DNA of 38,273 bases, from the IMG/VR virus record IMGVR_UViG_3300025137_000005, positions 1 through 38,273 of that record. One strand, 5' to 3'. Positions within the stretch are counted from its first letter, which is position 1; the number at the start of each line of letters is the position of its first letter. Under the pieces are notes generated by a model. The model did no database searches, had not been told where the DNA came from, and saw nothing but the letters and a program-made list of their open reading frames with translations. The translations under genes and the position numbers were made by a program. Positions 1 to 38,174 of the stretch are shown in pieces. Origin of the DNA: a virus.

Positions 1-99
1 CATTTTCGGCCAGCTCTGCATAGTATATACATAAACCACCCCTTTAAAAAATGGAAAACTCAAGGGATTTTTCATGCATCTCTTATATATAACAAAGAA
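1..99. repeat. Terminal direct repeat, left copy
   Basis: These 99 bases are identical to the last 99 bases of the window. An exact odd-length overlap at both contig ends is what de Bruijn assemblers leave when they close a circular or circularly permuted molecule, so I read this as an assembly overlap and the genome as 38,174 bp. A genuine short terminal repeat cannot be excluded from sequence alone. Confidence 0.95.
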
Positions 100-335
100 G
101 GAGCATGAAATATTCTATTCTTAGGAAGCAGGCATAGCTTCGCCAAGCAGCAAAGCTCTGAAACTAGACACAAGAAGTGTCGGACTAGGTATTATCGATC
201 AGTTTATCCATAACTCCAGGCATTATTTTATACTTTCCTTCATGCTAATTCAGGGAAAGTAACCTATAGACCAAGCAGAAAGCCCATATTCCTATGACCT
301 TTTGTTCTGAGTTGGTCTGCTTTTGCTTTTTTTGT
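100..335 (+). ncRNA. Candidate structured RNA or leader upstream of the late operon
   Basis: I find no convincing ORF here, but several complementary segments. AGCATGAA (102-109) can pair with TTCATGCT (239-246), which itself sits in the loop of a hairpin formed by ACTTTCC (232-238) and GGAAAGT (254-260); that would be a pseudoknot. The same 5' segment can instead pair with TTTCATGC at 70-77, giving a possible two-state switch. GACAC (167-171) pairs with GTGTC (177-181), and AAACT (161-165) with AGTTT (201-205). The region ends in an intrinsic terminator. It also holds three of the genome's rare CpGs (141, 181, 196). It could be a small RNA, an attenuator or a packaging or origin element. I matched it to no known RNA family. 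Confidence 0.35.
268..333 (+). terminator. Intrinsic terminator before the late promoter
   Basis: AGACCAA (268-274) pairs with TTGGTCT (312-318). Inside it CAGAA (276-280) pairs with TTCTG (305-309), giving a 12-bp stem with a small internal loop. A T-rich tract ending in seven T follows (321-333). It would stop rightward transcripts entering from the control region and insulate the late promoter at 381-406. Confidence 0.6.
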
Positions 336-380
336 CAGCTAGAAGCTACTCTACCTTGAATTACACCTGTCATTTAAAGG

Positions 381-406
381 TTGGCAAGGAGACTATGTGT
401 TATAAT
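381..406 (+). promoter_or_regulatory. Putative late (rightward) sigma70-type promoter with extended -10
   Basis: A perfect TATAAT lies at 401-406, preceded by TGT at 398-400, which makes an extended -10 element. A weak -35 candidate TTGGCA (381-386) is only 14 bp upstream, so the extended -10 probably dominates. The first gene of the packaging operon starts about 58 bases downstream. A very similar extended -10 precedes the scaffold gene near 6081. Confidence 0.6.
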
Positions 407-464
407 GATACCATAGTATTTTATTATACTTGCTATTGTCAATGTTTAATGCTTTTTTTTTGTA

Positions 465-1004
465 ATGACAGATAAGGATGAGTTAATGATCAACATAAAT
501 GATGCAATAAACAATGTATCAGAGCAAAAAAGGATAGGTAAGGTCAAGAGTTTGTCTGTTTATAACCCTGAGAAGGTAGCAAAAATCCTATATTTGCATA
601 GTATTGGTGTAAGTCAGACCCAAATGATAAGGAAATATGGGTTATCTAGGCACACAATACTCACAGTTTTGGTAGATTATGCTGATCATTTTGGTAAATT
701 AAAGGATTTAGCAGGTAGAATAAGTGCAAAAAACTATGTAAACATATCATCATTGGAAGAAGACCTTATAGAAAGTGTAAGAACAAGGATGGAAAGTGGT
801 GAATTAGAGGTAGGATTTAGGGATTTAAAGGAGTTAAGTATAGCAAAAGCTAATGCATTTAGGGAATCAATGACAGCTAGAGGTGAGGCTAGTAACATAA
901 CAGAGGATAGACAAACTGTAACCCAAGAAGATTATGATGCTACAGTAAAGGCAGCACAGGCCAGACTTGAAGCTATCAAAAAAGCAGATATAATAGATGT
1001 ATGA
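465..1004 (+). CDS. Putative terminase small subunit (TerS)
   Basis: The 179-residue product is placed as the small terminase, which recognises phage DNA and feeds it to the large subunit. Support is position (two small genes before TerL, first gene of the rightward operon), length in the usual range, and a helix-turn-helix-like segment at about residues 37-72 containing GVSQTQMIRKYGLSRHTI. The C-terminal half is helical and charged, as expected for oligomerisation and TerL contact. No Shine-Dalgarno stands before the ATG at 465. Met8 at 486 is an alternative start, with AAGGATGAG upstream. The gene overlaps the next by four bases (ATGA). It could be another DNA-binding protein. Confidence 0.6.
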   Translation: MTDKDELMININDAINNVSEQKRIGKVKSLSVYNPEKVAKILYLHSIGVSQTQMIRKYGLSRHTILTVLVDYADHFGKLKDLAGRISAKNYVNISSLEEDLIESVRTRMESGELEVGFRDLKELSIAKANAFRESMTARGEASNITEDRQTVTQEDYDATVKAAQARLEAIKKADIIDV

Positions 1005-1237
1005 GTGATTACCCTGATGATATTAATGATAGCATTAAGGCAAATGTAAGTGAGCACTATACTAATTATGCAATAATTTTGCTTGAAGAAGATGGTGGCT
1101 TGCATGTAGATTATTCAAATCCCATTATTGGAAAGGCTTTAATAGTTGAAGCTTTGAAAATAATGATTAAGTTAGATAGAAACCCAATAATATATTTTGA
1201 ACATGAACCAGAGGAGGAAGAAGATTTAGATGAGTAA
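1001..1237 (+). CDS. Hypothetical acidic protein, 78 aa
   Basis: The start overlaps the TerS stop (ATGA), so translation is probably coupled. The protein is acidic and ends in a Glu/Asp tail (EPEEEEDLDE). The middle (residues about 20-60) looks like a small alpha/beta fold with hydrophobic strands, including the YAIILLEEDGG stretch. I do not recognise a named family. Its place between TerS and TerL suggests a role in the packaging transcript, but that is context only. Confidence 0.7.
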   Translation: MSDYPDDINDSIKANVSEHYTNYAIILLEEDGGLHVDYSNPIIGKALIVEALKIMIKLDRNPIIYFEHEPEEEEDLDE

Positions 1238-1439
1238 AGAACAGTTAAAAGATTTAAAAGAAGATGATATCAAGGAATGTGCCAGACAGGCACTTTTTTT
1301 TCTCAATGAACAAAGGGTTAGTAGAGAAAACCTTATTTACAAAAATGCAGCAAAACAGTTTGTAGAAAATATAGTAAGATTAATAAAAGATGCCGGAACT
1401 AGCATTCAGTCCTCACCCACTACTAAGTCCACCAAGTGA
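1230..1439 (+). CDS. Hypothetical helical protein, 69 aa
   Basis: This small charged, helical protein overlaps the end of the preceding gene by 8 bases and the start of TerL by 50 bases in another frame. The preceding gene's GAGGAGGAAGA run supplies a strong Shine-Dalgarno just upstream of its ATG. No family is recognised. The long overlap with TerL means its last 17 residues are constrained by TerL coding, so the true C-terminus is less certain than the N-terminus. Confidence 0.6.
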   Translation: MSKEQLKDLKEDDIKECARQALFFLNEQRVSRENLIYKNAAKQFVENIVRLIKDAGTSIQSSPTTKSTK

Positions 1440-3051
1440 TGAAGAGATTATTCTCTTAGCTGAGAATGACCCTAAGTTATTACTCAAGTTGCATGAAGCA
1501 CATGAGGGCCGGATAAAAGCAGCAGAGATAGACCCACTTAGATATGGGTTTGATTTGGATGGTTGGCAAAGGATGAGAGACAGTTTGTGTGAGCACAATG
1601 AGTGCCTTGTTCTTGGTGGCAATAGATCAGGTAAAACTACAGGTTGTGCCAAGATGGTGATGGAGGCAGCAATGGAAAACAAGAATGGTCACATTGTATG
1701 TTTTTCGCAAAATGCAGACACATCAGTCAAGGTGCAGCAAGCAGCAATTTGGGAAATGATGCCCAAGGAGTTTAGGAGAAAGACCAAGAGTATGGAGGGT
1801 TACATAAACTTCTCTATGCAGAATGGTTTTACAGGTAGTAGTTTTATTTTTCCTGACACAAAAACTAGAGTAGATTTTAAGACCTATACACAGTTTAGTA
1901 ACAACCAGACAATTTTGGAAGGTTTTGAGTTTGGGTTTAAAAACCCAACTGGCCTTAATGTAGGTGCATGGTTAGATGAATATCTTGGAGATGCCACCTT
2001 GGTTAACACCCTAAGATTTAGGTTAGCAACCAGGAACTCTAAAATGGTTATAGGTTTTACTCCTATTGATGGTTATACTCCCTTTGTTGCAGAGTTTTTA
2101 AAAGGTGCAGAAACACTAGAGACCAAGCCAGCTGTATTGTTAAACAACACTCCTTTGCCAATAAAGCAATATAGCCCTAACAGAGATGCTAATGTAGTGT
2201 ATCTACACTCAGATGAAAACCCCTTTGGGGGCTATGATCGTATTGCCAAAGACCTCAAGGGTAGACCAGAGGAAGAGATAATGGTTAGAGCATATGGCAT
2301 ACCTGTTAGATCAATGACTTCATTGTTCCCATTGTTTAATACAGAGGTAAATGTATTATCAGACACACCCAACAAATATGAGATGACATTCCCTAAGTTT
2401 GAGTGGCCAGATGATTGGACATGGTATCAAGTAGTTGACCCTGCTGGAGCTAGAAACTTTACAGCTATATGGGCTGCAGTAAATCAAGATGGTGAAATAT
2501 ATATTAGAAAAGAATTTCCGGATAGAAATAGTTATGGAGAGTGGGCTATCTTTGCAGAACCAAAATGGAAGTATGGGCCAGCATCTAAAAAGATAGGACT
2601 AGATGTAGCAGGGTATGCAGAATTTTTTAGAGATATAGAGTCTGATCTAGGCATAGAGGTCTTTGAAAGGATAGGTGACTCAAGATATTTTGCTAAAGAA
2701 AATGAGAACAATGATGACTTATTCACATCATTTGATGATCATGGTATGACATTTGTGCCCTCAGATGGTAAGATGCAAGACATAGGTATAGCTGCAATAG
2801 ACAGGTATTTACAGTATAATCCTAATTATAGTATTGACAAGGCAAATAAACCCATGTTATACATACATGAAGAATGTGGAAACCTCATAGACAGTCTAAT
2901 AAATTATAATGGTGTTGGTAAATCAGATGAAGCACTTAAGGACTTTTTTGATGTCATCAGGTATCTGTGTATGGCTAATGCAGGTAATGGGCCAGACCAT
3001 ATCGACAAAAGATTACTTAATCTTAAGACAGACAGAAAGGGTGGATACTAA
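1390..3051 (+). CDS. terL: Terminase large subunit (TerL)
   Basis: The 553-residue packaging motor has an N-terminal ATPase and a C-terminal nuclease. The Walker A motif GGNRSGKTT is at about residues 76-84 and a Walker B-like WLDE at about 193-197. The nuclease domain begins near residue 345 (VVDPAG, with the conserved first Asp), and a late acidic FFDVIRY segment is near residue 518. Length is normal for the family. The protein docks on the portal and cuts and translocates DNA. The start at 1390 overlaps the previous gene by 50 bases and lacks a clear Shine-Dalgarno. Two CCGG sites (1393, 1509) fall in its first 40 codons. Confidence 0.93.
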   Translation: MPELAFSPHPLLSPPSDEEIILLAENDPKLLLKLHEAHEGRIKAAEIDPLRYGFDLDGWQRMRDSLCEHNECLVLGGNRSGKTTGCAKMVMEAAMENKNGHIVCFSQNADTSVKVQQAAIWEMMPKEFRRKTKSMEGYINFSMQNGFTGSSFIFPDTKTRVDFKTYTQFSNNQTILEGFEFGFKNPTGLNVGAWLDEYLGDATLVNTLRFRLATRNSKMVIGFTPIDGYTPFVAEFLKGAETLETKPAVLLNNTPLPIKQYSPNRDANVVYLHSDENPFGGYDRIAKDLKGRPEEEIMVRAYGIPVRSMTSLFPLFNTEVNVLSDTPNKYEMTFPKFEWPDDWTWYQVVDPAGARNFTAIWAAVNQDGEIYIRKEFPDRNSYGEWAIFAEPKWKYGPASKKIGLDVAGYAEFFRDIESDLGIEVFERIGDSRYFAKENENNDDLFTSFDDHGMTFVPSDGKMQDIGIAAIDRYLQYNPNYSIDKANKPMLYIHEECGNLIDSLINYNGVGKSDEALKDFFDVIRYLCMANAGNGPDHIDKRLLNLKTDRKGGY

Positions 3052-3440
3052 TGCCTAAGAAAAGATTATCTGTAATAGCCAAGGATATGAACCTAGAATT
3101 TAACCAGGCATACAATATAGTTGTGACCTTGTTAGAAGAAACAATGGTTTCTGGATCTGGCAAAAACACATGGATTGACGATAGGGGTCAATTAATTTTA
3201 GCAGAACATGAGGTAGTCCCAGAAATTACTTCTAAAGTTTTTGATGCAAGAGCAATAAAAAGATGTAACAATCTTAGGTATTGGTATGTGTATATACCCA
3301 ATGTAGGTAAAGTTCCTGCATTAGTACCTAAGACTTTAAGAGATGGTATGAATGAAAGAAAAAATGTCAAAGTTGAACTAATAGAAGATGACACAGGAAA
3401 ATCATACAGAATCTACAAAGCAAGATTGTACGACCAATAA
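3051..3440 (+). CDS. Hypothetical protein, 129 aa, with a possible N-terminal winged-helix-like segment
   Basis: The gene starts one base before the TerL frame ends. Residues 1-30 (KKRLSVIAKDMNLEFNQAYN) have the helix-turn-helix look of the small N-terminal domain of translation factor IF-2, and the rest looks like mixed beta structure. I cannot name a family. It lies between terminase and portal, a slot that commonly holds small head or DNA-binding proteins. The last 53 bases overlap the next gene in another frame. Confidence 0.7.
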   Translation: MPKKRLSVIAKDMNLEFNQAYNIVVTLLEETMVSGSGKNTWIDDRGQLILAEHEVVPEITSKVFDARAIKRCNNLRYWYVYIPNVGKVPALVPKTLRDGMNERKNVKVELIEDDTGKSYRIYKARLYDQ

Positions 3441-3618
3441 AAATTGGTTAGAAGAACATGAGGATAGGTTCATTGCATGGGAACTTTTTGTTAGGTATTG
3501 CAAGGGGCTATCAAGAACACCTATGAAGCAAAGTATATTGTGTGATAAAATAGGTCTGAGCAAAAGATATATCTATAGTATATTAATAAGTATAAAAAAC
3601 AAATATGGAAAATCCTGA
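3388..3618 (+). CDS. Hypothetical protein, 76 aa, helix-turn-helix-like C-terminus
   Basis: Residues about 45-70 (ILCDKIGLSKRYIYSILIS) read like a helix-turn-helix recognition unit, so a small DNA-binding role is plausible. The N-terminus is polar and overlaps the previous gene by 53 bases; an internal start would shorten it, but no later Met is better placed upstream of the HTH. The 3' end overlaps the portal start (ATG at 3605) by 14 bases. No family is recognised. Confidence 0.6.
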   Translation: MTQENHTESTKQDCTTNKNWLEEHEDRFIAWELFVRYCKGLSRTPMKQSILCDKIGLSKRYIYSILISIKNKYGKS

Positions 3619-5692
3619 TATAGATGATGCCTTAACCTATTACTCTAATGAACCAGATGTAAGGGCATTAAGGCATGCATATACACAAACCATAACTGAA
3701 TTAGAAGGTTACTTTGACCTGTGCAGAAACAGTTATGATGACCGGAGAAATTGGTGGGCTGGAAAATCTAGGGATCACAGGAAGCATGGAGCAGATGCAT
3801 TCCCTTGGGAGGGTGCTGCTGATATGGAGTCACATGTTATTGATGAAAGAATTACTAGAATGGTTTCTATCTTTATGGCTGCACTCAAAAGATCTAATGT
3901 TTCAGCATTTGCAGTAGAACCAAATGATGTAGCTAAAGCAGCAACAGTAACTAATTTCTTAAAATGGATGATTTCTTCTGGCTATATTGCTAGGTTTGAC
4001 AAAGAAATGGAACTAGGTGCTAACTATTTACTAGAAAGAGGCATCATGATTTCTTATGTTGGATGGCATAGGGAAGATAGAAAAGTTTTACAAAGACTTA
4101 GCCTTGATGAAATCAAACTTATTTCACCTGATTTAGGTAATTCAATAGAAAGTGGTGAAGCAGATGGAGCAGTTGCAGAAATATTGCAAATGGCACTTGA
4201 GGGTACTTCAGAAGAAAGGGCTATAAAGGCAGTACAAGAACTAAGGGAAACAGGGTTTGCTGAATTACCATTGGTACAAAGACAAATCAATGCACCTGAA
4301 GTATTAACACTAGCACCTGATGGTGACTTTTTCTTTCCTCCATATGTTACTGATCCACAAAGAGCACCATATTGTTTTTGGAGAACTTACTATACAGCCC
4401 AAGAGCTAGAGAATAAAGTTATTACAGATGGATGGGATCCAGACTTTGTTGAAATGGTTATAGATAAATACAAAGGTGTTACTTATGACTTACAAGAAGA
4501 TGAACCATATAACAATAGGAGTGCAGGATTAACTGATAATAGTTACACTACTTCTGATTTAATTGAAATTGTTTATGGATACCAAAGACTTATAGACAAA
4601 ACAGATAATGCTGAAGGGATTTACTGCACAGTTTTCCATAGGCAATATACAGGTGGTGATACTGTAAAACCATATGCTAAGTTTGAATTACTTAATGGAT
4701 TTGAAGATTATCCTGTGGTAGTTACTAAACTATCTGAAGATAGTAAAAGGCTTTATGACACTACAACTGTTCCTGACTTATTAAGGGGAATACAAAATCA
4801 AGTAAAAGTAGAAAGAGATTCCAGAATAGACAGGAACAGTTTAGCTACTTTACCTCCAATCATGCACCCTGTTGGCAATAGTCCTAAGAACTGGAAGCCT
4901 GGGGGATTAATCCCATACCGGAGGAAAGGTGAGTTTGAATTTGGGCCAGCTCCAGCATATAACCAGGGGTCTATTGAAATGGAAGCTACACAGCTAGGTC
5001 AAGCAGATAGATTAATGGGACTAGATGAAGGCTCTGATATTTCATTAATAAGACAACAATTCTTAGTTAATAAATACTTACACCATATAGCCAATGTAGT
5101 GAAGATGTGTTATAAATGCTACCAAAGATTTGGGCCAGCATCTATATTCTTTAGGGTCACTGGTAACTCTAATCCACAGACACTTGAAAAGGGTGTTGGG
5201 TTTGAAGATTATGATGTAACAATTAACTATGATATATTAAACAACAATCAAGATATACAAAAGGCTAAGTTAGAGCAACTTGTATCATTAACACAATTAG
5301 ATAGAAATGGGTTAATTGATATGGATAAACTACTTGCTGCTATAGCATCTTCTATAGACCCTGTATTATCTGATTCAATACTACAACCACTAGATGAAGC
5401 TAATCAAAATTTACTTAAAGAAATCACTGATGACCTTGCGAAAATTTATGCAGGGATTGAAATGCCTGCTAGACCAAATGCTACAGATGCTGCATTGCAA
5501 ATCATACAAGGATATTTGCAGCAACAAGATGTGCAAGCCAGGTTGCAAAGCGATCCGGCTTTTGCAGAAAGGATACAAAAGTATACTAATCAGTATGAAT
5601 TCAATCAACAACAACAAATAAATGCAACACAGTTTGGGCAGTTTGGAACAAAAGCTGCTGAGATGGGTGGAGTACAAACACAAAATATATAA
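3605..5692 (+). CDS. Portal protein (podovirus type, about 695 aa)
   Basis: The portal is the dodecameric ring at the head vertex through which DNA enters and leaves. Length fits the large portals of podoviruses. The N-terminal region has the HGADAFPWEGAADMESHVID block (about residues 60-80), which I recognise from marine podovirus-type portals. The central region is mixed alpha/beta and the last 150 residues are helical and Gln/Asn-rich, like a barrel domain. It sits directly after the packaging genes and before scaffold and capsid, the standard order. Two CpGs close together (5551 and 5556) fall near the 3' end, unusual in this CpG-poor genome. Confidence 0.88.
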   Translation: MENPDIDDALTYYSNEPDVRALRHAYTQTITELEGYFDLCRNSYDDRRNWWAGKSRDHRKHGADAFPWEGAADMESHVIDERITRMVSIFMAALKRSNVSAFAVEPNDVAKAATVTNFLKWMISSGYIARFDKEMELGANYLLERGIMISYVGWHREDRKVLQRLSLDEIKLISPDLGNSIESGEADGAVAEILQMALEGTSEERAIKAVQELRETGFAELPLVQRQINAPEVLTLAPDGDFFFPPYVTDPQRAPYCFWRTYYTAQELENKVITDGWDPDFVEMVIDKYKGVTYDLQEDEPYNNRSAGLTDNSYTTSDLIEIVYGYQRLIDKTDNAEGIYCTVFHRQYTGGDTVKPYAKFELLNGFEDYPVVVTKLSEDSKRLYDTTTVPDLLRGIQNQVKVERDSRIDRNSLATLPPIMHPVGNSPKNWKPGGLIPYRRKGEFEFGPAPAYNQGSIEMEATQLGQADRLMGLDEGSDISLIRQQFLVNKYLHHIANVVKMCYKCYQRFGPASIFFRVTGNSNPQTLEKGVGFEDYDVTINYDILNNNQDIQKAKLEQLVSLTQLDRNGLIDMDKLLAAIASSIDPVLSDSILQPLDEANQNLLKEITDDLAKIYAGIEMPARPNATDAALQIIQGYLQQQDVQARLQSDPAFAERIQKYTNQYEFNQQQQINATQFGQFGTKAAEMGGVQTQNI

Positions 5693-5697
5693 AAATC

Positions 5698-5856
5698 ATG
5701 GATAACCAATCAGGAGCACAATTCGCACAATCAAGGGCACAAGAGGCACCAGCAGAACAATCACCAGAGGCAGCAGGAAATGATGAGCTAAAATCAATGG
5801 TTCGTCAAATTGTCATGGAAGTTCTACAAGAAATGCAATCTGGTGCACAGGTCTAA
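5698..5856 (+). CDS. Small hypothetical protein, 52 aa
   Basis: Reading ATG at 5698 gives MDNQSGAQFAQSRAQEAPAE followed by a short helix with the VRQIVMEVLQEMQ stretch, ending at TAA 5854-5856. The stop overlaps the next start (TAATG). The first half is Ala/Gln/Glu-rich and disordered, the second an amphipathic helix that could be a docking or oligomerisation peptide. It fills what would otherwise be a 160-bp gap between portal and the next gene. No family is recognised. Confidence 0.65.
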   Translation: MDNQSGAQFAQSRAQEAPAEQSPEAAGNDELKSMVRQIVMEVLQEMQSGAQV

Positions 5857-6077
5857 TGGATTTAGATCAAGCACTCAAACAGTTAGTACATAACCCAGCA
5901 TATGGGAATGTTGTTGCACAAATACATGCTTATAGAGAAAATTCTATAAAGGCACTTGCTGGTGCATCTACTGAAACAGTACAACAAATTAGTGGAGAGT
6001 TATTAGCATATGACTCTATACTTGATTTGATGCACTGGGACTTAATTAATAAAATACATTTTACAAAAATTAATTAA
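5856..6077 (+). CDS. Hypothetical helical protein, 73 aa
   Basis: The start overlaps the stop of the 52-residue gene (TAATG), so translation is probably coupled. The sequence is helical, with the NPAYGNVVAQIHAYRENSIK segment, and has no membrane span or catalytic motif that I can see. It ends just before the internal promoter at 6060-6086, so it closes the first late sub-operon. Similar small helical proteins are common between portal and scaffold genes in marine podoviruses. The function is unknown. Confidence 0.7.
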   Translation: MDLDQALKQLVHNPAYGNVVAQIHAYRENSIKALAGASTETVQQISGELLAYDSILDLMHWDLINKIHFTKIN

Positions 6078-6086
6078 TGTTATAAT
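6060..6086 (+). promoter_or_regulatory. Putative internal rightward promoter for head genes
   Basis: TTTACA (6060-6065) and a perfect TATAAT (6081-6086) are separated by 15 bp, with TGT just before the -10 (extended -10). It lies at the end of the 73-residue gene and directly upstream of the scaffold gene. The terminator at 8743-8770 closes the same segment, so the scaffold, capsid and decoration genes form a separately boostable unit. Confidence 0.55.
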
Positions 6087-6134
6087 AATTTTATCGCAAT
6101 ATCGTCTTGGCGAAAAGAAGATGGACAAAAAATT
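6087..6134 (+). promoter_or_regulatory. Leader with a CpG-containing hairpin before the scaffold gene
   Basis: The 5' leader has TCGC (6094-6097) able to pair with GCGA (6110-6113), extended by U/A pairs and enclosing a 12-base loop that carries a third CpG (6103). Three CpGs within 18 bases is exceptional in this genome. It may be an mRNA-stabilising or regulatory hairpin. A short out-of-frame ATG at 6121 precedes the scaffold ATG at 6135. Confidence 0.35.
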
Positions 6135-7190
6135 ATGCAATCAGAAATCATTGAGGGGAACGAATCACCTAAACAAGAAGATTCGGAAAACATAAATTGG
6201 GAACAATTTATTGAACAAAGAGGGGGAGAAGAAACTTCACAAGAAATAGATTCTTCCTCTAAAGATGAGGCAGTAGACAATACCAAAGCAGAAGCTGGAA
6301 ATCAGACTACCAGTGAAAGTGATGGAAATAATACTACCGACCTTGTTCTTTCAAAGTTAGATTTAGATAGTTTATCTAAAGATCAAATTGGTGAGTTAGC
6401 AAAAAAACTCAATAGCAGAACCTTATCTAGGTTTGGAGAGCTGACAGCAAAAAGAAAAGCTGCAGAAGAAGAACTAGCAAAGATAAAGAACAACTCAACA
6501 GAAGCAGATGTACCAAAGGTTAAGAATAACCCATTAGCTGGTAAATCAAGTGAAGAGCTGAGTAATGCTAAGGAGCAAGCTGAAGAACTAATTGAATGGG
6601 CAGACAATGTATTATATGAACATGAGGATTCAAGTTCTAGTGATGTAATAGCAGAAGTAGAAGGTAAAGAATTTACCAAAGCAGAAGTTAAAAAATCATT
6701 AAGACATCACCAAAATGTAATAAAAAAATACATACCAGCTAGAGTAGCAGATATACAAAAGGAGGGTCAAAACCAAGAAATGGCACAAGCATTTGGCAGA
6801 CAAGCTGTCAAAGAATTAGCCTGGTTGAAGGATGAAAAAAATCCTATTACTCAAAAGTTTAAAGCTATGGCAGGTGACCCAAGGGTAAAGGATATGCAAA
6901 AAGAAGTGTCTCCAGAAATGCAGGCACAATTACCATACTTACTAGCACATGCTGCAAATAGCATATATGGCCGGAAGTTGGTAAATACAGCAAGACCTAT
7001 CATACCTAAGAAGATAAACAAACAACCTACTATAACACCTAATAAAACAGGCAAAACTGTAGTAGCTAAATCTGATAAGCCACAGAATAGAGCATCTAAA
7101 GTTATAGGTAATGCAATGAACAAATTTGCATCAACTGGTAGCAAAAATGATTTCATCAGTCTAAGAACTCAACAATTAACAAAAAATTAA
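6135..7190 (+). CDS. Putative capsid scaffolding protein
   Basis: The 351-residue protein is highly charged and low in hydrophobics: an acidic, Ser/Asn-rich first 80 residues, a helical coiled-coil stretch at about 85-150 (SRFGELTAKRKAAEEELAK) and a basic C-terminus. That composition and its place immediately before the major capsid gene are those of a scaffold, which guides procapsid assembly and then leaves. The start at 6135 follows a promoter and hairpin leader. No protease domain is visible. The assignment rests on composition and synteny, not on a motif. Confidence 0.72.
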   Translation: MQSEIIEGNESPKQEDSENINWEQFIEQRGGEETSQEIDSSSKDEAVDNTKAEAGNQTTSESDGNNTTDLVLSKLDLDSLSKDQIGELAKKLNSRTLSRFGELTAKRKAAEEELAKIKNNSTEADVPKVKNNPLAGKSSEELSNAKEQAEELIEWADNVLYEHEDSSSSDVIAEVEGKEFTKAEVKKSLRHHQNVIKKYIPARVADIQKEGQNQEMAQAFGRQAVKELAWLKDEKNPITQKFKAMAGDPRVKDMQKEVSPEMQAQLPYLLAHAANSIYGRKLVNTARPIIPKKINKQPTITPNKTGKTVVAKSDKPQNRASKVIGNAMNKFASTGSKNDFISLRTQQLTKN

Positions 7191-7210
7191 AAACAAGGAG
7201 ATTATAAATT

Positions 7211-8248
7211 ATGTCATTTTCAAATACATTTGACACCACAAATCCAGGATCTGCTGTTTCTAATAGAGAGGACTTGACAAGTACATTGACAATTCTTGCT
7301 CCAGAAGAAACACCTATCCTTTCCTCTGCTTCTAAAAAAGCTGCTAATGCAACTTTTGTGGAGTGGACAGTCGACAAGTTAGCCGACCCAATTACACCAT
7401 CTACAGCCAACTCAGGTATTGCTGAAGGTGCAGACATTTCTCAGTTTACTGATAAGTTTGCAGCAAGAGCAAGAATGGGTAACTATGTACAGAAGTTCCG
7501 CAGAGACTATATGGTTTCTGACCTTCAAGATGCAGTAGAATCAGTTGGGCCAGCTAAAATAGCAGAAGCAGAAGCTAAAGCTCTTAGAGAAATCAAAAGA
7601 GATATTGAAAAAGTTCTTGCTTCAACACAAGCCAGACAACAAGAAGATGGTACAGGTAACTCACCATATCGTACAGCAGGACTAGGTGCTTATTTAGCAG
7701 CAGCTCCAGCTAATGATTTTGTACCCTCTGGTTACTCAACACCAACAGCTAGTCGTTACACAGTAGCTCAAGCTAATGCTAATGCATTATCTGAGTCTAG
7801 CTTCAATGATCTTATTACAAGCATCTATGAAGTAACTGGTGAAACTAACAACCTAACACTTATTGCTGATACACAGCTAAGACGAATCATCTCTGACTTT
7901 GCAAGATTGCAAGGTGGTGATGGCACATCTATCCGTAATGTGAATTACCAAGGTGGAGCTGCAGACATTAAATTATCTGTAGAACTATACCAATCAGACC
8001 ATGGAACTATTTCTGTGATCAATGGTAATCCAGTATGTATGCCTAACTATGGTGCTACTGGAAACAAAGGATCAGGTTATTTTGTCAACCCTGAGTATTA
8101 TGGTATTCATGAGTTAATCCCAATGGGAACAACTAGACTACCAAATCAAGGTGGTGGTGAAAGAGGTTTTGTAGATTGTGCACTTACATTAGGTGTATAC
8201 CATCCTCAAGCTCATGGTGTTATCGAACAATCTAAAGACTTAGCTTAA
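7211..8248 (+). CDS. Major capsid protein (DUF5309/SU10-like)
   Basis: The 345-residue product has the N-terminal pattern I associate with DUF5309-type capsid proteins of the HK97 fold, including SNREDLTSTLTILAPEETPI at about residues 17-36 and a Gly-rich C-terminus. A strong Shine-Dalgarno (AAGGAG, 7195-7200) precedes the ATG, fitting high expression. It follows the scaffold and precedes a decoration-like gene. CpG is somewhat commoner here (seven sites) than in most genes, but none is CCGG. No other gene in the window could be the capsid protein. Confidence 0.87.
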   Translation: MSFSNTFDTTNPGSAVSNREDLTSTLTILAPEETPILSSASKKAANATFVEWTVDKLADPITPSTANSGIAEGADISQFTDKFAARARMGNYVQKFRRDYMVSDLQDAVESVGPAKIAEAEAKALREIKRDIEKVLASTQARQQEDGTGNSPYRTAGLGAYLAAAPANDFVPSGYSTPTASRYTVAQANANALSESSFNDLITSIYEVTGETNNLTLIADTQLRRIISDFARLQGGDGTSIRNVNYQGGAADIKLSVELYQSDHGTISVINGNPVCMPNYGATGNKGSGYFVNPEYYGIHELIPMGTTRLPNQGGGERGFVDCALTLGVYHPQAHGVIEQSKDLA

Positions 8249-8261
8249 GGAGAAAAATATT

Positions 8262-8729
8262 ATGCCAAAATTAACAGTACAAGAAGCAGCCATGACTGGC
8301 TTTACAGATGTCATTAGTTTTAAATTTGGAGATGACTTCAAAGCTAATACTAGTGCAGCAGCAATAACAAAGACATACTCTGTGCCAGCAGGTACACTCA
8401 TTGAGAATGCAGCTTATCACCTAGTTACACCTTTTACAGGTGGATCTATCTCCAATGTTACATTAGACATTGGTATTGGTGGTCAAGGATCAGCAACTAT
8501 TGATGATTTTATTGAAGCAGGAGACATCTTTGATGGTGCAACTTACTTAAAAAACAATGGATCTAAGCTTATAGGTGGGTCTGGAGCAAGGGGTCATCAG
8601 TTTGATACAGATGATACCATTGACATTGAGTTCACACCAGTAGGTGATGGTCTAGCAAATGCAACAGCAGGTGAAATTGTTATTAAGTTTACATTACTTA
8701 ATATGAATAAATCTGATGGAGTAAACTAA
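8262..8729 (+). CDS. Putative capsid decoration or head protein, 155 aa
   Basis: The 155-residue, Gly/Thr-rich, strand-rich protein directly follows the capsid gene and has an equally strong Shine-Dalgarno, both typical of abundant capsid-stabilising proteins. Strands around VPAGTLIENAAYHLVTPF and the C-terminal EIVIKFTLLNM suggest a beta sandwich. No Cys is present. The 22 bases around its start, from the preceding TAAGGAG to ATGCCA, recur exactly at the 28-residue gene at 11793. A minor virion protein is the main alternative. Confidence 0.6.
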   Translation: MPKLTVQEAAMTGFTDVISFKFGDDFKANTSAAAITKTYSVPAGTLIENAAYHLVTPFTGGSISNVTLDIGIGGQGSATIDDFIEAGDIFDGATYLKNNGSKLIGGSGARGHQFDTDDTIDIEFTPVGDGLANATAGEIVIKFTLLNMNKSDGVN

Positions 8730-8742
8730 TCTAATTTGGGTT

Positions 8743-8770
8743 GGGGGGCAAATAGCCCCCTGCCCTTTTT
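8743..8770 (+). terminator. Intrinsic terminator after the capsid genes
   Basis: GGGGGC (8744-8749) and GCCCCC (8755-8760) form a perfect 6-bp G/C stem with loop AAATA, followed after TGCCC by five T (8766-8770). It is the clearest terminator in the window. It lies between the decoration and 97-residue genes and would shape relative expression of head genes against downstream tail genes. Confidence 0.85.
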
Positions 8771-8773
8771 ATT

Positions 8774-9067
8774 ATGGAAGAAAATTATTCACAAGACGAA
8801 ACAGATGCAGCTTTTGTTGATCTAGTAAAAGGAGAACTAGACAAAGAAAAGAGGCAAGAAAAGTATAGAGTAGGACAAGCAGAAAAGGAAGCCAAGGATC
8901 TTGCTGGGGTAGATCATCCTATATTTGGTAAATGTGTAGCTTCAATACCTGCTAGAGATTACTTTAGACTTATAAACAAATATGGAACAGAAGAGGTACA
9001 TAGCCCTAAGTTCCTTAAATACTTTCAAAAAAACTTTGGTAACTTAACACCCAATAAATATAAATGA
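8774..9067 (+). CDS. Hypothetical protein, 97 aa
   Basis: The start lies four bases after the terminator T-run. The N-terminal half is charged and helical (ELDKEKRQEKYRVGQAEKEA); the C-terminal half is more globular, with a single Cys and a PARDYFRLINKYGTEE stretch. It overlaps the next gene by four bases (ATGA). The position between capsid and adaptor suggests a minor head or completion protein. I recognise no family. Confidence 0.7.
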   Translation: MEENYSQDETDAAFVDLVKGELDKEKRQEKYRVGQAEKEAKDLAGVDHPIFGKCVASIPARDYFRLINKYGTEEVHSPKFLKYFQKNFGNLTPNKYK

Positions 9068-10149
9068 AATCCTTTACTGATGCATTTGATTATATAAAAG
9101 CTTTAGCAGGTGTAAATAATTTTACAGCTCAAGAAAAAGCTAACATTAAGATACTCTTAAATAGGAGACTTAAGGTTGCATATAATGCACATGAGGCATG
9201 GAAAGAATATACAGTAGCAGGTGAAGAAAGGTTTTTTGCTCCCAAGACATTAACTATAGAAGATAAAGGTGCAACTGTAACCACATTATATTGGGCCGGC
9301 ATGACAAATGGATTTCCAGTTTATGTTAATCCTGACCCTGATGTACAAGGTGGTATAAATGTTTATCAATCTTTGTATAAAACTATTAGCACATCAACAG
9401 ATAGTGGTGGTGATTTTGTTATAACCCCTGGGGAGTGGAGATATGTTAAACAAACAAGAGTAACACTTACTTCATTAAATTTTTTAGAGCCATGGACAGC
9501 ACAAGTAGGAACACCTGCTGATGAAAATTTTTACTATGCTCAAACTGTTAATTTATATGGAAATATACAAGCTAATCCTGGATTTTCAGAACCTGACTTT
9601 AGTAAAGAAACAGTTTATCCTCACTTAGAAACTAACACTTGGCAGACAAGGGCAGAAGGTTCAGGTGTTAATACATTTAAAGTTATTGCATCAGATATGG
9701 TTGTTGTTCCCTATACAGAACAATTAAGTTCTAATAATCCATATCAAAAACATGAGGTAAGTACATTCCAAAGAGTTTTTAAAGAATACCCTTACCAAAG
9801 AAAGTCATCAATTGAGTATGATTTCCATGTAAATAGTGGTGGAGCATTGCCAATTAATTTAATTGAATCACCTAATTCTGTTTATGTAACATACAAAAAA
9901 ACATATACAGATCAAACTTTTGCTGAAGCAAGTGAGGATGTTAAGGTTATTGATAATACTTTTTTCCAATATGCTTGTTATGGGACATATGCTGATTTCT
10001 TAAGATTTGATGGGCAACTATCAAAAGCCTTAATAGAAGAAGAAATAGCACAAGGATTCCTTGATACTGAAATGGAAAAAGTTGATATAATGAATAATAG
10101 TAATTTAAATTTTAGGGTACAAACACACCTTAGTCACCAATCAAGATAA
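9064..10149 (+). CDS. Putative head-to-tail adaptor with an inserted beta domain
   Basis: The helical N-terminus (residues 1-45) and C-terminal segment (about 300-350, YGTYADFLRFDGQLSKALIE) resemble the helical bundle of podovirus adaptors, which sit under the portal. Between them lies a long strand-rich part. The NGFPVYVN and PGEWRYVKQTR pieces look like the small adhesive or carbohydrate-binding-like inserts common in marine phage virion proteins. The gene is in the expected slot between capsid and nozzle genes. At 361 residues it is larger than a minimal adaptor because of the insert. This is an inference from fold pattern and order. Confidence 0.55.
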   Translation: MKSFTDAFDYIKALAGVNNFTAQEKANIKILLNRRLKVAYNAHEAWKEYTVAGEERFFAPKTLTIEDKGATVTTLYWAGMTNGFPVYVNPDPDVQGGINVYQSLYKTISTSTDSGGDFVITPGEWRYVKQTRVTLTSLNFLEPWTAQVGTPADENFYYAQTVNLYGNIQANPGFSEPDFSKETVYPHLETNTWQTRAEGSGVNTFKVIASDMVVVPYTEQLSSNNPYQKHEVSTFQRVFKEYPYQRKSSIEYDFHVNSGGALPINLIESPNSVYVTYKKTYTDQTFAEASEDVKVIDNTFFQYACYGTYADFLRFDGQLSKALIEEEIAQGFLDTEMEKVDIMNNSNLNFRVQTHLSHQSR

Positions 10150-10151
10150 AT

Positions 10152-10472
10152 ATGAATACATATGTAGTAAACAGATATAATAAACCTACACCAGGAGCAG
10201 TTGCACAAAGTATGCAAATGACAACCTCAGATAATGCTGTAAAGACATTTGGTGCTTACAAAGAAAACACCAAAGTTATATTTTTAAGTGTATCAGGAGC
10301 TGCTGTTGGAATGACAATAGATGGTACAGCCCCAGGAGATACATCTTCTCATAGATTATTTTCAGGAAATAATTATTACTTTGCTAAGAATCTTATGCAA
10401 AATGCTAAGTTTAAAAGAATTTCTACAGGTACAGCTACAGTAAATCTGTATGCATCTGAGATGACCAATTAA
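10152..10472 (+). CDS. Small virion-type protein, 106 aa (paralogue of the next gene)
   Basis: The predicted structure is mostly beta. The C-terminal two-thirds aligns by eye with the neighbouring 131-residue protein: both have a KV-FL strand, an MTIDGT-P turn, an aromatic-rich segment, an AKF/ARF strand and a final SEMT/TEMT. The pair therefore looks like a tandem duplication. A capsid accessory, spike or tail-decoration role is plausible. No known family is recognised. Confidence 0.7.
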   Translation: MNTYVVNRYNKPTPGAVAQSMQMTTSDNAVKTFGAYKENTKVIFLSVSGAAVGMTIDGTAPGDTSSHRLFSGNNYYFAKNLMQNAKFKRISTGTATVNLYASEMTN

Positions 10473-10476
10473 TGTC

Positions 10477-10872
10477 ATGCCAAATGAATTTGAGGTAACT
10501 GTAGAAGAAAACCTTGTTCCTACTCCTAGACCAGGCAGGGCAAATAATGGTAGGCATTTTAGGCAATGGTTTAAAGGTAGTGGAACACCTGGTCAATCGA
10601 TAAAAAAATTTTTTGATATATCTGATAGAACCAAAGTTTGTTTTTTACAAATAAAATCAAGGGAAAATAATACAGGAAAACAAAAACTTTTAATGACAAT
10701 AGATGGTACTACACCAAATGTAGATGCTCCAGAAATAAGAACAGGTCATGAGTTATCAGAAAGAACAATATATAAATTCAATGCAGATCTAGTAAGAGCA
10801 GCTAGATTTTCTAATATACCTACATCACAAACCAAAGACATAACTCTTGTTTGTACAGAAATGACAATTTGA
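10477..10872 (+). CDS. Small virion-type protein, 131 aa (paralogue of the previous gene)
   Basis: This protein shares the MTIDGT core and the terminal TEMT with the upstream 106-residue protein but has an extra Arg/Pro/Gly-rich N-terminal extension of about 40 residues (RPGRANNGRHFRQWFKGSG). The start codon is separated from the previous stop by only four bases. The two copies may form a hetero-oligomer or have divided the work of one virion protein. The function is unknown. Confidence 0.7.
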   Translation: MPNEFEVTVEENLVPTPRPGRANNGRHFRQWFKGSGTPGQSIKKFFDISDRTKVCFLQIKSRENNTGKQKLLMTIDGTTPNVDAPEIRTGHELSERTIYKFNADLVRAARFSNIPTSQTKDITLVCTEMTI

Positions 10873-10873
10873 A

Positions 10874-11259: not shown

Positions 11260-11387
11260 TGAGCCTATATAAAAACATTAATAAAAGAAAAAAAGCAGGA
11301 ACTAGTCGTCCTAAATCTAAATCAACAATATCAGCTAAAGCATATAAAAATATGAAAGCTGGTTTTCCTAAGAAAAAAAAGAAATGA
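11259..11387 (+). CDS. Small basic protein, 42 aa
   Basis: ATG at 11259 reads MSLYKNINKRKKAGTSRPKS, then a short segment with AYKNMKAGF, and ends in a Lys tail at TGA 11385-11387. I recognise near-identical small proteins as a recurring element of marine phage structural clusters. It overlaps both neighbours (TAATG and ATGA), which supports real translation. The extreme basicity suggests association with packaged DNA or RNA. The function is unknown. Confidence 0.75.
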   Translation: MSLYKNINKRKKAGTSRPKSKSTISAKAYKNMKAGFPKKKKK

Positions 11388-30198: not shown

Positions 30199-30260
30199 TA
30201 GGTGGTTGAAATAGGGAATGAAATAACCCCAACTAGCATCTTAATAGCCAGACTACCTAC
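30198..30260. other. Convergent junction with an inverted repeat
   Basis: Only about 58 bases separate the stops of the rightward and leftward arms. GTAGGT (30198-30203) is complementary to ACCTAC (30255-30260) across the gap. There is no T-run typical of an intrinsic terminator, so collision or factor-dependent termination is more likely. I see no gene here. Confidence 0.5.
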
Positions 30261-31561
30261 AAAGTATTTGAAACAAAGTCTCTTATCCTACAACAGGGTT
30301 TGATGAATTCAAAATCTCCATCAGCATAGCTCTGACCTGCTCTTTGTTTGGGCCGGCACCATCTTAATTTTGTAGCATGAAAATCATCTGTCTTAAGTGT
30401 GTACAGAAATGTTACAGAGTCAGCATCCCTTTCAAGTGATGCACTATCACCTAGATCTGATAGCCTTGGCTGCCTATCTTCTTTCTCTGACTCTCTATTT
30501 AATTGTGCTACTACTATAATTGGTATCTTTAATTGTCTAGCCAAAGACTTGAGTGACCTAGATATGCCTGAGATTTGCTCATCTCTTCTTATGCCTTCAC
30601 CTTTCATTAGTTGTATGTAGTCTACAACCATAAGTTTCATATCAAATTTTCTTTTCCAGTACCTAGCTTTTGATGCAATCTTCTCAAAGGTATCTCCCCT
30701 TTCATCTATAAGTATATCTAGTTTAGATACTTTTTCTAATGCATCATTGAACTTATCTAAATTACTTTTGGTAGCTACCTTGTCATAGATTTGTTGCACT
30801 TGCACACCAGATAATGTTGAGCATATCTTCTCAATGAGTTCATCATCACCCATTTCCAAACTAAAAATACCTACAGCTTTGTCATCAAGTGCTGCTCTTA
30901 ATGCTACATTCATAGCAAATGTTGTCTTACCTCTGCCTGGTCTAGCAGCAACAATACATATTTGTCCTGGCCCAAAGCCTCCTCTCTTCAAGGATTTATC
31001 ATAGCTTTCTATACCAGTAGGTATGTACTCATTGGAATCATTGGAGTAAACATTTTCTTTTACCCTCTCTATAGTATCTACTATATTAAAGTCATCACTG
31101 TAGGATAGGTTGATCTTAGATACACTAGTTTCAAGTGATGCACAAAGTGTTTCTGAATCAACTGATTGGCTAACTGCAGATTCAATTGATAGCCTGCATG
31201 ATCTAATAAGTTCTCTTAATTTAGATTTCTCTTTTACTTGTTGAGCAGCCCACCTACCTTTTACACCTGTTGTGCTTGTCTCTAATACTTGATAGATATA
31301 AGTGAGCCCACCTACAGTTCCTTCATCTCCATTAATTCTTAGCCTTTCAAGTAAGCTAATCTCATCTAAAGCTTCACCTTTAAGTGCAAGCTGTTTGATT
31401 GTAGCAAATAAAATCTTATGTGTTTCATAAAAAAAATCTTGCTCATGGACAATTTGTGATAGCTCATCAAACTTAGAGCCATCAGAAAAATGTAAACATG
31501 AAGCCAGAACAATTTGTTCTGACTCCATGCTACTAGGTAAATCAGAAGGGGATGTTGTCAT
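30257..31561 (-). CDS. dnaB: Replicative DNA helicase, DnaB type
   Basis: The 434-residue protein has an N-terminal helical domain (MESEQIVLASCLHF onward) and a RecA-type ATPase. The Walker A motif is ARPGRGKTT near residues 205-213, and Walker B is LMVVDYIQLM near 309-318. Near the C-terminus QRAGQSY and FIKP recall the DnaB Arg-finger and end regions. Helicases of this family unwind DNA at the fork. With no phage polymerase or primase visible, it would load the host replisome on phage DNA. It overlaps the SSB-like gene by 20 bases and ends the leftward operon. Confidence 0.94.
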   Translation of the reverse strand: MTTSPSDLPSSMESEQIVLASCLHFSDGSKFDELSQIVHEQDFFYETHKILFATIKQLALKGEALDEISLLERLRINGDEGTVGGLTYIYQVLETSTTGVKGRWAAQQVKEKSKLRELIRSCRLSIESAVSQSVDSETLCASLETSVSKINLSYSDDFNIVDTIERVKENVYSNDSNEYIPTGIESYDKSLKRGGFGPGQICIVAARPGRGKTTFAMNVALRAALDDKAVGIFSLEMGDDELIEKICSTLSGVQVQQIYDKVATKSNLDKFNDALEKVSKLDILIDERGDTFEKIASKARYWKRKFDMKLMVVDYIQLMKGEGIRRDEQISGISRSLKSLARQLKIPIIVVAQLNRESEKEDRQPRLSDLGDSASLERDADSVTFLYTLKTDDFHATKLRWCRPKQRAGQSYADGDFEFIKPCCRIRDFVSNTL

Positions 31562-34733: not shown

Positions 34734-34995
34734 TTATTTCTCCTTCTATTTTTTGTTTATGTGCATAGGACATTGGATAGTCATGACTCTTTATGAATCT
34801 AATCTCTTCAATATCCCAATCATCTAGTTCTATTTCTTGCCAACTCTCTGATACTGATTGCTCTCCATGCATGCTAGTGCATTCACAGTTAGTAATGGTG
34901 TAGTTAGCATTTACTTTTATATCAATAAATTTATTGTGCTCAATTTCTAAGTCACAAAAATCTATGGTCTCATTGTGTTCTCCTGGTTCTCTCAT
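34708..34995 (-). CDS. Hypothetical acidic protein, 95 aa
   Basis: I start at ATG 34995, which overlaps the methyltransferase stop (ATGA) and has AAAGGA six bases upstream; a longer frame to 35037 would run into the methyltransferase. The protein is acidic, with three Cys in the first half (FCDLEIEH, TNCECTSMHG) and a C-terminal EIELDDWDIEEIRF motif. Such small acidic early proteins often inhibit host enzymes, but that is only a suggestion. No family is recognised. Confidence 0.68.
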   Translation of the reverse strand: MREPGEHNETIDFCDLEIEHNKFIDIKVNANYTITNCECTSMHGEQSVSESWQEIELDDWDIEEIRFIKSHDYPMSYAHKQKIEGEINEYINDTY

Positions 34996-35894
34996 TTTAT
35001 TCCTTTCAATATTTGTGCTACTGTATCTACTTGCCACCCATCACCTAACAAACCAGCAGCTTGGTTTCTAGTGATTGGTAAGGTGTATCCAATGGGCACA
35101 CCTTGGGCTCTCTCAAGTTCAATCCTAGACATGACCCTCAAGTCATTCTCTTTGGCCAGAGTATAATCCCTTTTGAGTTTGTCATGTGTAGCCTTGTCCC
35201 TGAAGATCACATTGCCAAACCCTACCTTGAAGAATCTTCTAGCAAGTTTGACTAGATCTGTATTAGGTCTTGAGTCACTTTCTAGTAGGCATGTGCCATA
35301 CTTTCTAGGACTATATGGTGTTACTAGGCTAGGATTACCTTTCTCTATTATGCATGAGAAGTGAGGTGCAATCTTATGTTGCATCCACTCCTTCACATTA
35401 TCAAGTGGTATGTTTGTCCAGTATAACCTTTTCCTATATACACCTGTTGCTATGTAACTATCAATGAAGATTGGCTCAACACCTACTTCCTTAGATATAA
35501 TGTCTTGTTGGTCTTGCTTCATTCTCACATTTTCTAGCAACCAATACTTAGGTTGAAGTTTATTTCTCCAATGTAGCCATGTCCAAAAGAGCTTAGACTT
35601 GTCACCATCTAGTCCCTTTCTTGTATGTCTATTTGCTATACTGAAATTTTGACAAGGTGATCCACCCATGAATAGGTCAACCTTCCCTGGTTCTATGTCT
35701 TGCAATATAGTTTCCCCTAAATCTAACACACTACCTAGTTGTATAGTCCTGGGAAAGTTTTCTTGAGTCACCTTGATTGCATCTTTCTTTATCTCACTTG
35801 CAAGATAGGTGTCATAATGTAGGCCGGCTTTCTTTAAAGCTAGTTGACCACATGACATGCCATCAAAGAGACTTACTACTTTCATATTATTCAT
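34992..35894 (-). CDS. DNA (cytosine-5) methyltransferase, Dnmt3-like
   Basis: I start at ATG 35894, which overlaps the previous stop (TAATG) and has AAGGA just upstream; the open frame extends to 35939. The 300-residue enzyme shows the C5 methyltransferase motifs in order: I SLFDGMSCG (8-16, SAM binding), IV GGSPCQNFS with catalytic Cys81, VI ENV (121-123), VIII YRKRLYW (153-159) and a C-terminal ERAQGVPIGYT...GLLGDGWQV. The SIANRHTRKGL segment after the catalytic loop, and Gly-Asp-Gly-Trp in place of the usual Gly-Asn-Ala of motif X, resemble the Dnmt3 branch rather than standard Dcm enzymes. Its target site is unknown; CpG is the obvious candidate. No restriction partner is visible. Confidence 0.93.
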   Translation of the reverse strand: MNNMKVVSLFDGMSCGQLALKKAGLHYDTYLASEIKKDAIKVTQENFPRTIQLGSVLDLGETILQDIEPGKVDLFMGGSPCQNFSIANRHTRKGLDGDKSKLFWTWLHWRNKLQPKYWLLENVRMKQDQQDIISKEVGVEPIFIDSYIATGVYRKRLYWTNIPLDNVKEWMQHKIAPHFSCIIEKGNPSLVTPYSPRKYGTCLLESDSRPNTDLVKLARRFFKVGFGNVIFRDKATHDKLKRDYTLAKENDLRVMSRIELERAQGVPIGYTLPITRNQAAGLLGDGWQVDTVAQILKGIK

Positions 35895-37490: not shown

Positions 37491-37771
37491 ACTTGAGATT
37501 TTACAAAAGCAATGTCATCTTTTTTTCTACCTATAAGCATTTCTAAACTTGCTTGCTTATGTGTTATGGGGTTTTCATTGATGATCATATTTTCATTATG
37601 CTCAACAATTCTTGCCTCTATGATTTCATTGCTAGATTTTTTTCTTGATGTGTCATTAATTATCCTAGATCTTTTGAAGCTTCTTCTAGGTTTTAAATTC
37701 CTAGTGAAAGCCCATTGAGGATTGCTATTCCAATTAAAGAAACATCTAGTTTTTTTACTAGTTTGTCTCAT
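37481..37771 (-). CDS. First early gene, hypothetical basic protein, 96 aa
   Basis: This is the first gene of the leftward operon, about 55 bases below promoter 1. The N-terminal half is basic and aromatic (FFNWNSNPQWAFTRNLKPRR); the C-terminal half has a helical THKQASLEMLIGRKKDDIAF segment. First-expressed small phage proteins often target host machinery, and a terminator directly after it would allow separate dosage. No family or motif is recognised, so this is position-based inference. Shadow frames overlap on the plus strand, but the minus frame fits the operon and promoter. Confidence 0.62.
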   Translation of the reverse strand: MRQTSKKTRCFFNWNSNPQWAFTRNLKPRRSFKRSRIINDTSRKKSSNEIIEARIVEHNENMIINENPITHKQASLEMLIGRKKDDIAFVKSQVWC

Positions 37772-37828
37772 TTTTATTATTTGATTGTTAAAGAACTTTT
37801 AGCTAAGGCTTTCCTTAAGCTTGATAAT

Positions 37829-37857
37829 AGTATCTTACATTTAATAACACATGTCAA
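37829..37857 (-). promoter_or_regulatory. Leftward early promoter 1
   Basis: On the minus strand a perfect TTGACA (37857-37852) is followed after 17 bases by GATACT (37834-37829), with an A/T-rich stretch directly upstream that could act as an UP element. It faces the first early gene, leaving a leader of about 55 bases. Confidence 0.72.
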
Positions 37858-37951
37858 CTATTTATTTAAATTATTTAAAGTTTTTTTAACTTTATTTTGT
37901 CCAGGGTAGAAGGCCAGGACTAGTGCACAAATGTATACAAAAAATGTGAGC

Positions 37952-37979
37952 ATGATATATTATAAAGACAAGAAGTCAA
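37952..37979 (-). promoter_or_regulatory. Leftward early promoter 2
   Basis: TTGACT (37979-37974) lies 16 bases before TATCAT (37957-37952) on the minus strand, five of six matches to each consensus. The upstream AAATAAATAGTTGAC context is the same as that of promoter 1, so the two are related copies about 120 bp apart. Confidence 0.65.
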
Positions 37980-38036
37980 CTATTTATTTTAGGCCAGAAT
38001 TGGTCAGACTAGTGCACAAATGAGCACCATTAAGAA

Positions 38037-38052
38037 TGTTCCATGTGGAACA
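38037..38052. promoter_or_regulatory. 16-bp palindrome resembling parS
   Basis: TGTTCCATGTGGAACA is palindromic except at its central two bases, and differs from the ParB-binding form TGTTCCACGTGGAACA only by C to T at the central CpG. It may be a ParB or Noc-like site, an operator or an origin element. No parA/parB gene is visible in the window. Confidence 0.45.
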
Positions 38053-38174
38053 ATTGAAACCATTTTGAAACCATAAAAGCAATGTCAATGCATTGCACTT
38101 TCAAGAAATAAAAGGAAGGCTCAAAGTAGTGAACAAAAAAGTAGTGAACATATGAGCAGGGTGGGGGTGTATTT

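Follow-up and report, generated by a model that had tools for sequence, protein, structure and literature searches.

Loss of CpG in a phage clade may reflect site avoidance down to the dinucleotide, with CCGG and GGCCRG sites spared

How does a phage genome come to be almost free of CpG? The question is raised by the IMG/VR virus record IMGVR_UViG_3300025137_000005, which was analysed over its whole length of 38,273 bases (the window). Direct counting gave 64 CpG in the full window and 63 in its 38,174 unique bases, where about 1,174 are expected from the counts of NC and GN. The strand-symmetric CpG odds ratio is 0.054, so that about 95% of CpG has been lost. An initial annotation, made from the letters alone, had put the count at about 63 and the ratio near 0.06; the count is exact, and the computed ratio lies within the predicted 0.05–0.1 and not near 1. 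As causes it had offered methylation with deamination, CpG-directed restriction, and inheritance from a CpG-poor host, and the context rules described below favour the second. We consider it slightly better than an even bet (probability roughly 0.54) that selection purged CpG, as a case of site avoidance reaching down to a dinucleotide, under host restriction and with a shielding phage methyltransferase.

1..38174, no strand: the CpG-depleted genome without the copied terminal repeat (63 CpG, odds ratio 0.054)
38175..38273, no strand: direct terminal repeat of 99 bases, a copy of 1–99 (the last 99 bases equal the first 99)

The window has a G+C content of 35.1%. The other odds ratios (GpC 1.23, TG/CA 1.27, CC/GG 1.13, AG/CT 1.17) agree with the earlier description of GpC as plentiful and of TG and CA as abundant. 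At fourfold degenerate sites, G after C and C before G each account for 0.2%. Since the deficit is present both inside codons and over codon boundaries, the depletion is a DNA-level effect and not codon choice, as the initial annotation had stated; its figure of about six CpG in the 9.5-kb giant gene was likewise borne out (6 in 15583–25050). Arginine is encoded almost exclusively by AGA/AGG, and CGN makes up 3.8% of the 479 arginine codons, versus 29–58% in 15 tabulated relatives outside the clade to which the window belongs. Such codon usage would fit a phage whose composition simply follows a host genome or tRNA pool poor in CpG. This explanation is scarcely credible, given that codon boundaries are also affected, that the deficit is limited to one clade while relatives sharing its head genes show ratios of 0.42–1.10, and that the CCGG and GGCC rules described below would not result. 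A sequencing artefact was dismissed because contigs with seven sample numbers share the depletion, and an RNA-level cause because a palindromic DNA site governs the sparing.

The limits of the clade were drawn with the terminase gene.

1390..3051, plus strand: terminase large subunit, the clade-defining gene (phrog_2, 9e-22)

The terminase had at least 599 matches in IMG/VR, of which the best 80 were kept. Among these 80, the five nearest relatives (L002–L006, 87–92% identity) have CpG odds ratios of 0.052–0.187, and the remaining 75 have ratios of 0.418–1.097. Three further members found through other genes, L089, L090 (overlapping L089) and L091, have values of 0.019, 0.020 and 0.094; L088, which differs from the window by just 0.1%, was not counted as independent. 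In 255 other loci outside the clade the ratio goes no lower than 0.288 and has a median of 0.73; these loci overlap in part and do not sample phages at random. CpG loss marks a single clade. Fourfold differences between the window and seven of the nine members are 0.39–0.44 (L091 0.21, L088 0.00), and reach 0.56–0.69 for 14 tabulated relatives outside the clade. Because most members differ this much from the window, the depletion is old and probably near balance.

The surviving CpGs are strongly non-random, a point absent from the initial annotation. CCGG accounts for 23 of the 63, and 37 of the other 40 have TCG on a strand. Measured against expectation, TCG contexts occur 37 times versus 587.5 (0.063), CCGG 23 times versus 45.9 (0.50), and VCGB contexts other than CCGG 3 times versus 541 (0.0055, a 180-fold depletion). 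Depletion is equal in the four TCG classes (0.05–0.07), the five other VCGB classes each reach at most 0.01, and all nine non-CCGG NCGN classes are affected. Where TCG is absent, sparing is limited to the full palindrome CCGG (CCGC 1, ACGG 2, ACGC 0, ACGT 0, GCGC 0). The same order was found in L002, L003, L004, L006 and L089 (TCG 0.01–0.12, CCGG 0.35–0.79, other VCGB 0–0.016). L005 and L091 deviate, with TCG at 0.32 and 0.16, other VCGB at 0.04 and CCGG at 0. Eleven of the 23 CCGG sites of the window lie inside GGCCGG, and the remaining 12 still reach about 0.28 of expectation; the 5′ flank of CCGG is mostly T or G (71/82).

Counts far under the sub-word expectation, as found for VCGB without CCGG (3/541) and for GGACC/GGTCC (0/16.6), are the mark of site avoidance. 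Orthodox Type II recognition sites have four bases or more, and we know of no restriction enzyme that reads only two. With nine NCGN classes depleted, the avoided word would be CG or VCGB, unless many enzymes are at work. Several host restriction enzymes with 3–4-base CpG sites (ACGY, CGC, GCGC, CGCG, TCGA), CCGG being spared by the phage methyltransferase, are indeed conceivable, since just this kind of word is missing from relatives (CGC from four loci, ACGC and ACGT from others). We hold this to be unlikely, as the evenness of the TCG classes and of the five VCGB classes would require many enzymes of matched strength. Because the depletion is even within each context class, the data favour a single CpG-reading agent, and one such agent would suffice.

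The non-CCGG CpGs crowd the start of the window: 28 of the 40 lie within the first 9 kb and six in 15–38 kb. The crowding in 1–9000 may perhaps stem from exchange with a less depleted lineage. Two CpG-keeping stretches in this part are perhaps regulatory or structural signals.

128..200, no strand: non-coding element with three CpGs (141, 181, 196), kept in 6/6 covering sequences (window, L002–L006)
6090..6190, no strand: stretch keeping five CpGs, of which the first three are non-coding, common to L002 and L005

A second rule concerns GGCC. Every GGCC of the clade, 99 of 99 including L090, lies within GGCCRG/CYGGCC (window 41/41, L002 17/17, L006 12/12, L003 11/11, L004 5/5, L089 8/8), and among 76 distinct 20-base GGCC sites RG is the sole invariant flank. 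Elsewhere, in loci that have at least two GGCC, the share of GGCCRG is 339/1,725, or 328/1,714 after removal of 11 sites from the clade sub-loci L103 and L104, with 19% expected. Two examples from the window are:

1507..1512, plus strand: GGCCGG, a spared GGCC and a spared CCGG together (GGCCRG rule)
2576..2581, plus strand: GGCCAG, with GGACC at the same place in L005 (GGCCRG rule)

GGCCRG sites of the window are kept in 29 of 47 cases in five members (L002 10/19, L006 7/9, L004 4/7, L003 5/8, L089 3/4); GC-rich control words are kept at 0.36–0.50, somewhat below GGCCRG in each of these members. As sites turn over while the rule holds, the rule is maintained and not just inherited. GGWCC does not occur in the window (0 versus 23.5 expected) and has one site in the rest of its clade (L006). 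L005 and L091 again stand apart: none of 13 GGCCRG sites of the window is kept in them, they have one and no GGCC and no CCGG, and GGWCC is present (8 and 2, versus 4.8 expected in each), yet they are CpG-poor. GGCCRG partly occupies positions where L005 has GGACC.

Both rules can be connected with a gene of the window.

34992..35888, minus strand: C5-cytosine DNA methyltransferase (PF00145, 3.8e-26; phrog_116; reading frame open to 35939)

Besides the PF00145 match, the alignment displays the motifs PCQ, ENV, RxR and QGxP, which we take to be those of C5-methyltransferases; TIGR00675 stayed below its cut-off. The gene looks intact, as judged from its sequence. Homologues with 85–88% identity occur in L083 and L084. 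L002 and L006 carry the gene at this identity, and together with the window it is present in 3/3 members with the region available. No second methyltransferase was recognised among the scanned window proteins, a scan covering part of the open reading frames. CCGG is one form of the motif CCRG, whose complement is CYGG, and the motif overlaps GGCC exactly when RG follows. From this footprint we propose CCRG/CYGG as the predicted specificity of the phage enzyme, which would therefore shield both CCGG and GGCCRG.

Taken together, the rules suggest the following course of events. In hosts of the lineage a defence of the restriction type would be directed at unmodified CpG, acting strongly if no TCG stands on either strand and about ten times more weakly where TCG stands on one. 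Additional host defences would act on GGCC and GGWCC. The phage C5-methyltransferase would modify CCRG/CYGG and so block attack on CCGG, the sole CpG context with the motif, as well as on GGCC where RG follows on either strand, and these sites would survive. Cleavage by host restriction is the simplest account of why the other CpG and GGCC sites were removed. It is supported by the phage family, whose members are completely without lineage-specific words such as GCGC, GGCC, CATG, GATC, CAGG and CGC. Relief by modification is in line with GGCC found solely in GGCCRG and with CCGG at half its expectation; the modification would be that predicted from the footprint, and GGCCRG is over-represented.

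The initial annotation had linked the depletion to the methyltransferase, through decay of methylated CpG to TpG and CpA. In its plain form, with the phage enzyme methylating CpG generally and deamination following, this is very improbable. The gene is found wherever its region is available, and its best solved-structure match is DNMT3A/3B, which are CpG enzymes; the match is limited to the catalytic half (residues 19–179), with a second, very weak stretch. The footprint is CCRG/CYGG with CCGG as the best-preserved CpG, which, like the GGCCRG rule, speaks against flank-free recognition of CG, and the CpG-poor L005 and L091 lack that footprint. Also against the proposed tie, 82 loci with homologues (from the best 80 of 564 homologue matches and earlier loci, two of them from the clade) are of moderate CpG content, with a median ratio of 0.60, compared with the 0.73 of the 255 loci outside the clade. 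Among ranked loci no consistent link of recognition-domain similarity to CpG or CCGG sparing was seen. Over 50 records, 12 matched the methyltransferase, and as these records are mostly fragments the figure was not used as a correlation. No plasmid gave a methyltransferase match covering 80% of the protein.

The decay might also be driven from the host side, a host CpG methyltransferase methylating phage DNA, 5-methylcytosines turning into T and the phage enzyme modifying CCGG first. Vertebrate-type CpG depletion arises in this manner, by DNMT methylation and deamination, giving low CpG with raised TG/CA, and is about fivefold. The window shares the low CpG and the raised TG/CA (1.27), and the catalytic half of its enzyme is nearest to DNMT3A/3B among solved structures. 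It differs in being more deeply depleted (180-fold for VCGB), in its dependence on context with CCGG spared, and in that transitions are not enriched overall in the clade; the GGCC rule, too, would be left unexplained. The spectrum of changes was taken from six aligned members (L003, L090 and L088 left out), in pairs that all share the window and are thus non-independent, and arginine CGN to AGR changes, which are transversions, were pooled with other CpG changes. Of 90 single-step CpG changes, 44 were transitions, and the background is 0.46–0.50. By pair, transitions were 10/12 for L091, 17/35 for L005, 9/20 for L002, 2/10 for L006, 4/11 for L004 and 2/2 for L089. Before G, lost C was replaced mainly by T after GG and TC, and by A, not T, after GT and AC. 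Non-CCGG CpGs of the window are kept in L002 at 14/19, L006 3/6, L004 4/8, L003 4/8, L089 1/1, L005 14/20 and L091 5/6. GpC is kept at 0.63–0.77 across relatives (0.71 in L002, 0.65 in L005), so that CpG retention is about that of GpC in L002 and L005, and lower in L006, L004 and L003.

The excess of TpG and CpA, which had been taken as a mark of decay, is present and lies above the GCGC and ACGT controls. The codon families compared are not the same, and the replacement base is not always the decay product. In order to see what avoidance of a word leaves behind, relatives lacking a given word were compared with the others for seven palindromes (GCGC, ACGT, GGCC, CCGG, TCGA, GTAC, CTAG); no phage without CTAG was found. 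A shift to the transition product was seen for GCGC (1.37 versus 1.01), ACGT (1.18 versus 0.98) and GGCC (0.76 versus 0.32). Thus three of the four usable palindrome controls show a shift resembling decay, less strongly than the window, and an excess of this kind is also left by palindrome avoidance. Combined, the tests make methylation decay less likely, the fourfold evidence being mixed. Decay by the phage enzyme was not favoured as the main cause in view of context, spectrum, fourfold sites and palindrome controls.

Several observations nevertheless weigh against selection by host restriction. At fourfold sites of the window the ratio of A to T is 1.31 after C and 0.79 otherwise, and the shift of this A excess measured against C plus T is about 1.7, exceeding the GCGC and ACGT controls. 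The L091 pair, with its 10/12 transitions, would by itself exceed the background as deamination predicts. These two points and the raised TG/CA speak for methylation by the host with decay, which we regard as distinctly unlikely when they are set beside the controls and the spectrum. The CCGG control went in the opposite direction (1.43 versus 3.11), in a comparison group that has almost no T there, as did TCGA and GTAC, on just 21 and 32 codons. GGCCRG is over-represented 5- to 18-fold (CTGGCC 30 versus 5.5, CCGGCC 11 versus 0.6), which counts here because protection alone predicts neutrality. GGWCCRG might be expected to be protected as well, but GGWCC is zero. Homologues with partly similar recognition domains lack consistent CCGG sparing. 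L005 and L091 are presumed to be without the methyltransferase from their missing footprint; their early region was not found via the exonuclease, the methyltransferase alignment or the neighbouring gene. Host restriction itself is a candidate agent, deduced from sequence patterns.

L005 and L091 were treated as one lineage solely on the ground of their shared metagenome 3300025120. Positions 9171–15578 of the window differ from L091 by only 12% (identity 96% at 10–11 kb), and its first 7.5 kb differ from L005 by 19%. If both belong to one lineage, the likeness of 9171–15578 to L091 suggests recombination. The region that follows (15583–25050) encodes a protein of 3,155 aa, coiled-coil-like by eye and taking up a quarter of the genome, which has only 27% identity to its L091 counterpart, while the six preceding genes have 80–99%. 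A scan of the window for tRNA and RNA families found none. The other genes named in the window are:

3605..5692, plus strand: portal protein, weakly named (identity 63% with Phage C75C1 and 21% with annotated portal proteins; Pfam and PHROG gave no match)
7211..8248, plus strand: major capsid protein, SU10 type (PF17236, 8.1e-48)
30257..31561, minus strand: DnaB-like replicative helicase (PF03796, 1.2e-59)

Phage C75C1 (OQ984151) is the nearest named relative by terminase (74% identical) and has a similar order of head and replication genes. It differs in its CpG ratio of 0.679, in another, larger methyltransferase, and in its missing words (GATC 0, GGCC 2/51). Terminase and methyltransferase scans of bacterial genomes, reaching close relatives only, gave no match to a host, and a search with portal and capsid among named phages gave only distant capsid matches, many of them to proteobacterial phages.

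Word loss in the relatives is extensive. CGC/GCG is fully missing in L032, L035, L048 and L068 (0 versus 242, 160, 149 and 209 expected), and total loss of a non-palindromic three-base word is no less strange than the CpG case. CAGG/CCTG, also non-palindromic, is absent or nearly so in L007, L010, L012–L015, L019, L021, L023, L030, L043, L050, L054, L059 and others (0/106 in L043, 0/71 in L050), accompanying loss of CATG and often of GCGC and GGCC. In L025, L040, L044, L066 and L081 there is a taboo on ACGY, ACGC and ACGT being absent and ACGA at 0.70–1.03 of expectation. Enriched phage-specific 6-mers were found in L064 (GGGTAC, 47 versus 10.6), L115 (AGCTAG, 39 versus 10) and L020 (AAGGCC, 30 versus 8.3); in these and in L024 the enrichment resembles that of CTGGCC in the window, and further clade members show enriched words particular to them.

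The almost total loss of short sites from phages has been ascribed to host restriction, with eliminated sites (compositional bias below 0.1) making up 7.1% for orthodox Type II systems, and a phage modification enzyme can relieve avoidance, as in the coliphage hydroxymethylase example (Rusinov et al. 2018, PMC6286503). The window resembles these cases in the near elimination of short sites and, as we propose, in relief through a phage enzyme. It differs in that its word is a dinucleotide and in that a site is exempt if it overlaps the presumed site of another enzyme; the terms CpG, dinucleotide and overlap do not occur in that text. The CG methyltransferases M.SssI and M.MpeI (PMC5944983) are likewise C5-methyltransferases, and CG, their word, is the one depleted in the window; the specificity predicted for the phage enzyme is CCRG/CYGG and not CG. 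No CpG-purged phage was found in the literature among the titles and abstract openings searched.

That the hosts' defence reads CpG itself in unmodified DNA, and that it has driven this phage family to erase whole di- and trinucleotides (CpG in this clade, CGC in four relatives) lineage by lineage, is a tentative proposal towards which we lean less than halfway. If selection by host restriction is the right explanation, restriction avoidance would extend to the level of a dinucleotide, and the genome would have given up about 1,100 expected CpGs and almost every CGN arginine codon to it. Low CpG together with high TpG should then not be taken as a mark of methylation, and the specificity of a phage methyltransferase might be readable from spared sites without culturing. 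It would further predict a bacterial defence against unmodified CpG that has so far gone undescribed.

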